Below, piece after piece: positions 27,613 to 31,602 of a stretch of DNA of 56,688 bases (its first letter is position 1; each line of letters starts with the position of its first letter). The translations under genes and the position numbers were made by a program. Origin of the DNA: an uncultured Desulfotomaculum sp. (GTDB lineage: Bacteria > Bacillota > Desulfotomaculia > Desulfotomaculales > Desulfotomaculaceae); assembly GCA_946411205.1 (NCBI GenBank), contig CAMKDG010000002.1, positions 1-56,688 of the forward strand, given 5' to 3'. The notes under the pieces were generated by a model. That model was not told the DNA's origin, did not search any database, and saw only the letters and a program-made list of their open reading frames with translations.

Positions 27613-27642
27613 TTGTCATAGCGTAGGGATTTACGTTATAAT
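27613..27642 (+). promoter_or_regulatory. sigma-A-type promoter of the selenoprotein gene
   Basis: TTGTCA and TATAAT separated by 18 bases, ending 36 bases before the ATG. Confidence 0.65.
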
Positions 27643-27678
27643 TACTCCATAAAATAATCAAACAGGAGGGCTAACAAA

Positions 27679-27918
27679 ATGGCTGAGCAAGTTAAATTGT
27701 CTATTGAATATTGTACTTCTTGAGGCTACCGCCAAAAAGCAGTCGGTCTGGCTGAAAAACTTTTGCAGATTTACAAAAATAAGATCAGCTCCTTTGAAAT
27801 AATACCTTCCGCCGGTGGGGTATTTGAAGTAAGAAAAAATGGAGAACTCCTTTTCTCTAAGAAGGAACTAGGCAGGTTTCCAGAAATGACAGAAATAGTA
27901 GCTATGTTAAATCTATAG
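27679..27918 (+). CDS. SelW/Rdx-family selenoprotein with in-frame UGA (Sec)
   Basis: Reads MAEQVKLSIEYCTS, TGA at 27721-27723 (codon 15), then GYRQKAVGLAEKLLQIYKNK, ISSFEIIPSAGGVFEVRKN and a regular end at TAG, 79 residues. The CxxU motif at positions 12-15 just after a first beta strand, followed by GYR, is the redox site of the SelT/SelW/Rdx family, a thioredoxin-like fold. CAGGAGGG lies nine bases before the ATG, a promoter precedes and a strong terminator follows. Coding character continues after the TGA with no frame change, which favours Sec decoding over a nonsense mutation. It requires selA/B/C/D elsewhere in the genome. Its redox partner is unknown. Confidence 0.85.
27725..27752 (+). 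promoter_or_regulatory. candidate bacterial SECIS hairpin
   Basis: Immediately after the UGA, ACCG (27728-27731) pairs with CGGT (27744-27747) around a 12-base loop, and lower bases GC (27725-27726) can pair with GC (27751-27752). Bacterial SECIS elements lie in this position and bind SelB. The lower stem is imperfect, so this is tentative. Confidence 0.45.
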
Positions 27919-27919
27919 A

Positions 27920-27978
27920 AAATAAAACGAGTGAGAGTTCGCAAAGCCACTTTTTGCGAACTCTCACTCGTTTTATTT
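27920..27978. terminator. 26-bp perfect bidirectional terminator
   Basis: AAATAAAACGAGTGAGAG and TTCGCAAA pair perfectly with their reverse complement, 26 bp, around a seven-base loop. T-rich on both strands, it lies exactly between the selenoprotein gene and the convergent comB. Confidence 0.9.
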
Positions 27979-28878: not shown

Positions 28879-31254
28879 TTACTGCGGGTTATATCTTTTT
28901 AGCAACAAAGAATTTGTTACTACAGACACCGAACTGAAGGCCATTGCTGCACCACCCATAATGGGTGTCAATACTCCAAATGCCGCCAGAGGAATGCCAA
29001 TTACATTGTAAATGAAGGCCCAAAAAAGGTTTTGACGAATTTTGCGTAAAGTGCGACGCGATAATTTTATGGCCATGGCAATAGTAGCTAATTCACCCCG
29101 CATCAAGGTAATGGATGCGCTCTCAATGGCTACATCTGTACCCGTGCCGATAGCTAACCCCACATCGGCAATTGCCAAGGCAGGGGCATCATTAATTCCG
29201 TCACCTACCATCGCCACAATTTTACCGGTATTCTTCAATTCTTGTACCACTTCAGCTTTGTGTTCCGGTAGAACCTCCGCTATCACATGCTTAATCCCTA
29301 CCTGACGGGCGATAGCCTGGGCTGTACGTTCCTGGTCTCCCGTCAGCATATATACCTCCATGCCCATGTCTATAAGTTCTTGGATGGCTTCCCTGGCATG
29401 CTCTTTCACCGTATCTGCCACCGCAATGGCTCCTGCTAATCGATCATCGCTGATAGCAAGCATAACTGTTTTGCCCTCTTCTTCCCATTCATTTTTAACT
29501 GCCAGGATAGAAGAAATATCTATATTCAGGGAATGGGCCAGTGTTTCATTGCCAACATGCCAAATTCTTTGCTCTAAATGATAACGAATCCCCTTGCCCG
29601 GTAAGGCTAAAAAGTCGCTGACTTCCATAAGTTGCGTTTCACGCTCGATGGCAGCCTTAAGAATTGCCTGGCCCAGGGGATGTTCCGATTTTTTCTCCCC
29701 GGAAGCAACAGCCTGTAAAAGTTCCTCCTCCGTAAAGGGTGCCATAACCAATACATTGGTTAAAGAAGGTTCTCCTTTGGTGATGGTACCGGTTTTGTCC
29801 AGCACGATGGTGTTAACTCGACCGGCCCTTTCCAGGTGCTCGCCACCTTTAATTAATATTCCCTTTTCAGCCCCGACACCGGTTCCCACCATAATTGCCG
29901 TGGGAGTTGCCAATCCCAAGGCACAAGGACACGCTATGACCAGTACCGTGGTCATATGAATCAAGGCCTCTGTAACACCGGCCCCTGAACCATACCAACC
30001 GGCAAAGGTCAGTAACGCAATTACCACAACCACAGGTACAAAGATACCGGAAACTTTATCAGCCAGCCGTTGAATTGGAGCCTTAGAACCCTGAGCTGCC
30101 TCTACCATGCGGATAATCTGAGCTAAGGCAGTGTCTTTACCAACCTTGGTAACTCGAAAAGTAAAACTGCCTTGCTTGTTCACAGACGCACCCACAACTT
30201 CGCTGCCAGGGCTCTTCTCCACGGGTATACTCTCGCCGGTCAACATGGATTCGTCCACTGAAGAGAATCCTTCAATAATTGTACCGTCCACCGGTATTTT
30301 TTCTCCCGGACGAACCAAAACGACATCACCAGCTTGCACTTCATTAACAGGAATATCTATTTCTACACCATCGCGAACAATTCGTGCTGTTTTCGGTTGT
30401 AGACCAATCAATTTTTTAATCGCTTCGGATGTTTTTCCTTTAGCCACGGCCTCCAGATACTTGCCCAGCAAGATCAGAGTGATCACAATGGCAGCGGATT
30501 CAAAGTAGAGGTCGTGCCAACCCTTGAAAACAGCTACCACGCTGTAGAAGTAAGCCACCGATGTACCCAGTGCCACCAGTACGTCCATGTTGGCTCCGCC
30601 TGATCTTAAAGAATGATAGGCACCCCGGTAAAATTGCCAGCCGGCCAAAAACTGTACAGGGGTTGCTAAAAGTAACTGAATCCAGGGATTCAGCATAAAC
30701 TGGTGCCAACCAAACATCATGGCAACCATCATCCACCCTAGGGGTAAGGATAAAATCGCGGCTCCAGTAAATCGAATAACCTGCAGACGAATTTCCTTCT
30801 GCCGCGCTTGAGCTTCTCGATCTTGGTTATCCTCCTGAACCCAGTTTGCCCCGTAGCCAAGGTTCTCTACTGCTTGCCGTACTTCAGTCGGTTCCGTTAA
30901 ACCAGGAATGTATTGCACAGTGGCCCTGCCGGTGGCCAGGTTTACCGTGGCCTCCTGTACACCCACCAGCGCGTTTAATTTCTTTTCAACCCTGGCAGAG
31001 CAAGCAGCACAGGTCATCCCTGAGACGGCAAGTTCTATCCGTTCAACCGGCACATTGAAACCTAGCTCACGAATCTTGGAAATAAACTCTGCTACGTTGA
31101 TTTGTTGGACATCATAGGTAATCGAGGCTTTTTCCGAAGCCAGATTAACACTGGCCTCAGAAACACCGGGCATCTTTCGTAAAGCCCGTTCGATCCGTGC
31201 AGAACACGCTGCACAGGTCATGCCTTTGATAAAAATAGTAATCGTTTTAGGCAT
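28879..31254 (-). CDS. copA: copper-exporting P1B-type ATPase
   Basis: 791 residues. Two N-terminal heavy-metal-associated domains carry [12 protein letters not shown] (Cys14, Cys17) and [12 protein letters not shown]. The membrane region includes the CPC motif in [13 protein letters not shown]. Cytosolic motifs are TGES in [13 protein letters not shown], the phosphorylation site [13 protein letters not shown] in [10 protein letters not shown] and [11 protein letters not shown]. These specify Cu(I) export driven by ATP. It lies 24 bases downstream of csoR in the same unit and is expected to be induced by copper. Length normal. Confidence 0.95.
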
Positions 31255-31278
31255 AATTTATCACCACCATCATTATTT

Positions 31279-31602
31279 TTATCGCATCATCTTAAAGATA
31301 GTCTTCAATACTTCATCAATAACCTGTTCATCGCCTGCCTGAAGTTGTTCTTTAACACAGGATTTCATATGCTTTTCCAAAAGCAACTTAGAAACACCGT
31401 GCAAAGCAGCATTGGCCGAGGAAATTTGATTTAGTATTTGATCGCAGTAGGCCCGTCTTTCAATCATTCCCTTGATGCCTCTTAGTTGGCCCTCGATGCG
31501 GTTAATTCTATTGACAAGTTCCTTAATGGTCTTCTCATCATGATGGCTAACCCTAACGTCAGCAGAATTGTCTTGACCACACAAACAATTTTTATTGTTC
31601 AT
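31279..31602 (-). CDS. csoR: copper-sensing repressor CsoR
   Basis: 107 residues of the CsoR/RcnR helical family. The Cu(I) ligands are recognisable as Cys in RRAYCDQIL and His plus Cys in EKHMKSCV. The core INRIEGQLRGIKGMIERR is intact. An N-terminal extension with CLC and His residues is unusual but unlikely to matter. CsoR binds DNA without copper and is released by Cu(I); it probably represses itself and copA through the operator just upstream. Confidence 0.92.
   Translation of the reverse strand: MNNKNCLCGQDNSADVRVSHHDEKTIKELVNRINRIEGQLRGIKGMIERRAYCDQILNQISSANAALHGVSKLLLEKHMKSCVKEQLQAGDEQVIDEVLKTIFKMMR

Follow-up and report, generated by a model that had tools for sequence, protein, structure and literature searches.

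We propose with high confidence, from its sequence, that a short gene, selW, in a 56,688-nucleotide (nt) stretch of DNA from an uncultured Desulfotomaculum sp. is a stand-alone gene for a selenoprotein of the SelW (Rdx) family. The stretch (hereafter the window) represents contig C2 of a 3.62-Mb assembly that comprises 210 contigs and has a completeness of 94.69%. The selW reading frame runs from the ATG at 27679 to the TAG at 27916-27918, with 14 codons preceding an in-frame TGA (codon 15) and 64 following it. In our model, the gene would be transcribed from its own putative promoter through to a putative terminator. SelB loaded with the selenocysteine (Sec) tRNA would bind a selenocysteine insertion sequence (SECIS) hairpin at 27740-27754 and selenocysteine would enter at the UGA, a step that the comparisons below support. 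Cys12 and Sec15 would then make up a CxxU redox pair, and the product, by analogy with its family, is probably a thiol/selenol oxidoreductase acting on small thiols or protein disulfides. A first-pass annotation, made from the letters alone, had already proposed a SelW/Rdx-type selenoprotein, and the profile matches, the sel genes and the hairpin all support this interpretation. Thus, recoded genes can be spotted by a reader without tools.

The 79-residue read-through product matched Pfam Rdx (PF10262) with 79.2 bits (E = 2.7e-22; gathering score 22.6), so that a chance open reading frame (ORF) is rejected, and NCBIfam CXXU_selWTH with 68.5 bits (cut-off 34.2). Because its 87.6 bits lie just below the cut-off of 88 of the equivalog NF041051 (SelTWH_Campy), we did not file it there. 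Eight PDB sequences matched with E values of 1 or below, ranging from Atu0228 (1.6e-11) to mouse Selenoprotein W (0.0038). As the annotation had claimed, the TGA falls at the Sec position of the CxxU motif of the family (C12-T-S-U15), and both of its columns hold nothing but Cys or Sec in all 24 of the sequences compared. The predicted model places a strand at residues 5-12 and a helix at 18-32, with CxxU between this first strand and first helix, as expected of the Rdx/SelW-like family. The model has the thioredoxin-like fold of that family, and the product is accordingly predicted to be a small Rdx/SelW protein of this fold. The closest named relative found, Desulforamulus aeronauticus DSM 10349 (L021), is 94% identical across the whole protein.

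Next to the family assignment stands the behaviour of the TGA among homologues. A search with the protein matched 18 of 100 genomes (our own among them), each with one internal TGA. The Pfam family was found 23 times in 22 of 113 genomes of the class, always with a single TGA, so that within these genomes SelW occurs in the Sec form only. Over 398 genomes of the phylum there were 31 matches in 31 genomes, 28 with one TGA and three without: G453 has Cys, G256 has the Arg codon CGA, and G284 is a fragment of 28 positions that does not cover the site. The class and phylum samples have six matching genomes in common. A TGA was seen in seven of the eight loci that a scan of genome contigs returned, the eighth (Nocardiopsis) having Cys. 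Similarly, the 2006 survey states, in the part available to us, that Sec-using organisms contain very few Cys forms of SelW-like proteins, or none (PMC1794560). The TGA was also present in two of ten plasmid-borne relatives, both on large plasmids: L115 (NC_011961.1 408170-408385, Thermomicrobium roseum), annotated only downstream of the TGA, and L119 (NZ_CP089998.1 370638-370862, Cytobacillus spongiae, Bacilli), absent from the PLSDB gene table, such tables being incomplete. It is plausible that selW is easily missed by gene annotation, since an in-frame stop word is read as selenocysteine.

Constraint on the protein persists across the TGA. In each comparison with the eight other genomes of the genus, the proportion of nonsynonymous differences (pN) was lower than that of synonymous differences (pS), both before and after the TGA. 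Over 61 codons after it, pN was 0.03-0.25 and pS 0.31-0.84, with several silent distances saturated; before it, only 12 codons were compared. The other two frames contain 4-9 stops each in the nine genus sequences. The coding character that the annotation claimed past the TGA is borne out over the 61 codons compared. When the window was scanned against G005, another genome of the genus, for more read-through genes, antisense frames were equally well conserved at such a distance.

We observed a bacterial SECIS-type hairpin after the TGA, where the annotation had suggested looking for one. Its loop, GGUCU, presumably resembles that of Escherichia coli fdhF. The first alignment used 21 of 23 prepared rows, which exclude L020 (a weak match), L021 (a repeat of L004), L026 (Cys) and six class matches (L065-L070); the two omitted rows, L027 and L028 from Chloroflexota, form one and four of the five pairs. 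In the 21 rows, 99.0% of the 105 cells that set columns 20-24 against 30-34 are paired, and sliding by one to three columns drops pairing to 44% or less. Sixteen cells were changed on both sides versus a shuffled mean of 4.7, a value reached in none of 500 shuffles. When the set was widened to 53 Sec rows, all five pairs formed in 39 and at least four in 50, which makes this covarying hairpin a clean test case for SECIS finders. This set omits L106 (Arg, five pairs formed), L020 and L021 (repeats of L067 and L004) and second loci of counted genes. Ten of 34 plasmid records had been taken as Cys controls; L115 and L119 turned out to be Sec and were counted as such. A G lies within the first two loop positions in 53/53 Sec rows and in 8/10 Cys rows. 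Unlike the window selW, the ten Cys-type homologues lack the full hairpin: five pairs form in 0/10 and four pairs in 1/10.

Columns 21 and 33, both third codon positions, are paired in 48 of 51 distinct Sec rows and show all four Watson-Crick types, versus a mean of 22.4 and a maximum of 34 in 20,000 shuffles. Columns 24 and 30, also third positions, are paired in 48/51 versus a shuffled mean of 40.3, with 1 in 20,000 reaching 48; the shuffles take no account of relatedness. Without RNA pairing, silent positions would hardly show four pair types. In loop, stem and spacing the hairpin (loop GGUCU, 5 bp, 21 nt) fits the bSECIS model, which in the part of the source available to us asks for a loop of 3-9 nt with a G within its first two positions, a stem of 4-16 bp and 16-37 nt from UGA to loop (PMC13188914). 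Relative to the bSECIS energy threshold of -7.5 kcal/mol, the 34-nt segment 27724-27757, including a 3-bp side stem, gave -9.5 and the hairpin with 4-nt flanks -5.3. Rfam at gathering scores returned no matches within the window.

All four sel genes that the annotation had proposed searching for are in the genome: selA (538 bits) with selB adjoining it (358 bits) on C54, selD (403 bits) on C30, and selC, the tRNA-Sec (66 bits; anticodon TCA by ARAGORN), on C63. In 21 of the 22 Rdx genomes of the class selA scored over the cut-off; in G007 the match is split into pieces. The selD of our own genome (L037, G000:C30:12166-13083) also carries an in-frame TGA.

Such genes are not new. A SelW-like protein is listed among eight selenoproteins of Desulfotomaculum reducens, now Desulforamulus reducens, in the part of the 2006 study available to us (PMC1794560). 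It is Sec-containing and belongs to the same genus and family; it comes from a different species as far as known, and we liken the two by family and genus, not residue by residue. In a distant lineage, Campylobacter jejuni SelW (CJnc60) is described, in the portion of the source at hand, as a protein of 80-81 residues whose UGA is read by tRNA-Sec and which was formerly filed as a small RNA (PMC11955535); the likeness rests on that description and on the SelTWH_Campy score given above. Atu0228 (PDB 2fa8), a Cys-type Rdx protein, has Cys in the alignment where the window protein has Sec. In our literature search, 'selenoprotein' and 'Desulforamulus' were not found together, which speaks for that wording alone. 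The selW finding is therefore true and well supported, and ordinary in kind, as such genes were already known, also from the same genus since 2006. It adds a well-supported member to a family that, in the part of a Sargasso Sea survey available to us, was the most abundant selenoprotein family (48 genes) and whose function was called unclear (PMC1088965).

We considered whether the frame is instead the remnant of an Rdx gene that a nonsense mutation inactivated. The stop at codon 15 is what such a pseudogene would have, but the same TGA recurs in 23/23 class and 28/31 phylum matches, it is common to several families, and protein-level constraint continues past it, which makes this extremely unlikely. 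Alternatively, suppression or a changed genetic code might let the TGA be read as Cys, Trp or another residue with no need for selenium. The ten Cys homologues indicate that the fold would accommodate Cys; however, the Sec machinery is present, including a tRNA-Sec with anticodon TCA, and the hairpin tracks the TGA and not Cys codons. We consider this alternative very improbable.

Termination and Sec insertion are well known to compete at UGA codons, and the gene could therefore yield mostly a 14-residue leader peptide, with the UGA as a selenium-sensitive stop and the full-length protein rare. Against this, the 61 codons after the TGA are constrained at the protein level, and full-length translation of the C. 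jejuni relative is supported by Ribo-seq and proteomics, as stated in the part of that source available to us (PMC11955535). We give a leader peptide very little credence, and retain Sec insertion into a full-length SelW as our explanation.

Several observations weigh against this explanation. The annotation had held that relatives with neither Cys nor TGA at codon 15 would count against a selenoprotein, and one homologue does carry Arg there. This case, G256 (L106, G256:C12:56925-57131), is a distant Rdx homologue with a weak score (37.5 bits) in which the hairpin is still formed, and it stands once in 31 phylum matches versus 28 with TGA; we take it to be a single case, either derived or erroneous, arising from recent Sec loss or sequencing error. 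Two of five covariation measures are not above shuffles (pairs changed on both sides, 2 vs 1.8; further pair types, 5 vs 6.0), fewer than four of five pairs form in 3/53 Sec rows, and the Cys rows are mostly from Alphaproteobacteria and Halobacteria, unmatched in lineage. Energy alone does not set the hairpin apart: the z-score is -2.7 for the bare 15-nt hairpin and -0.9 for a 40-nt segment, and other folds win in 57- and 76-nt segments. Co-occurrence with selA is weak evidence because selA is common in the class (over the cut-off in 107/113 genomes), and in one Rdx genome, G070 (84% complete), no selA match exceeds the cut-off. Gene context offers no lasting partner.

Table 1 Features of the selW locus in the window.
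Feature	Position	Strand	Basis
Promoter-like site TTGTCA-18-TATAAT, 11/12	27613..27642	+	Consensus match only
Ribosome binding site AGGAGG, 9 nt before ATG	27664..27669	+	By eye
selW (Rdx family) coding sequence, 79 residues, Sec at 15, stop TAG	27679..27918	+	Sequence and Pfam/NCBIfam matches
TGA as selenocysteine codon, U15 of C12-T-S-U15	27721..27723	+	Reading frame and homologue comparison
Bacterial SECIS-type apical hairpin, 5 bp, loop GGUCU (27745-27749), 21 nt after TGA	27740..27754	+	Comparative pairing
Terminator-like hairpin, 20-pair stem and T tract	27926..27972		Consensus match only

Regarding the expression signals, the ribosome binding site claimed by the annotation is there, while its promoter and terminator are present as consensus matches only (Table 1). 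Between 27000 and 28750 we counted 9 promoter-like sites vs 4.7 (standard deviation, sd, 2.1) in shuffles and 3 terminator-like matches vs 1.0 (sd 1.0), the three being a single hairpin on both strands and in two registers. This hairpin is usable from both sides and is common to selW and the convergent 2-phosphosulfolactate-phosphatase-like gene, which flanks selW opposite nuoA of the nuo operon. A functional link to these flanking genes was rejected, since the context is common to only G005 among the loci of 16 relatives. A phage origin of selW was likewise rejected, as no DNA or protein match was found in the phage collection.

Scoring upstream neighbours as the closest ORF of 80 or more codons, we found a cysteine-synthase-like gene as the immediate same-strand ORF in five of nine genus genomes (G001, G004, G006, G007 and G008). 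The closest such ORF is MoaD/ThiS-like in G002; in G003 (L073) a TnpB-like ORF is closest, and the cysteine-synthase-like gene comes fourth. An aldehyde-ferredoxin-oxidoreductase (AFOR) and MoaD/ThiS-like pair lies near selW in some genus genomes. On the 3' side, a VanW-like gene follows selW in G001, G002, G003 and G004 and is shortened in G008, a carbohydrate-phosphorylase-like ORF comes next in G006, and in G007 the contig ends past selW, with the VanW-like gene on another contig and no selW within 1.5 kb. These labels derive from matches to Pfam PALP (262.9 bits) and NCBIfam cysKM (332.8; cut-off 344.15), VanW (168.2) and AFOR (439.4); MoaD/ThiS-like is a guess, because the ThiS score (21.7) is below its cut-off (22.5).

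In our own genome (G000) and G005, the cysteine-synthase-like gene is on a different contig from selW. There, just 40 nt separate the ends of the cysteine-synthase-like and VanW-like matches, a gap that lacks selW and holds what by eye is a terminator-like stretch (L113 3269-5639; L127 513-2865). Most simply, selW would have changed its place in an ancestor common to both genomes; the move may also have gone in the opposite direction, or there may have been loss and regain. We considered a cysteine-synthase operon for selW and rejected it: the genes adjoin in only five of nine genomes, and TATAAT-like motifs (by eye) before selW in four of them point to separate transcription. A limited literature search found no link between selenoprotein W and a bacterial cysteine synthase operon. 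As selW occurs only in the Sec form in the class and lies beside a cysteine-synthase-like gene in most of the genus, and as its move to a site with a promoter-like element of its own suggests an independent unit, one could speculate that SelW, working as such a unit, serves sulfur/selenium amino-acid chemistry, for example by reducing persulfides or selenides, and not general thiol redox; we regard this as unlikely. Elsewhere in the window, a heavy-metal P-type ATPase is encoded at 28879-31602, with a metal-sensitive repressor gene adjoining it.
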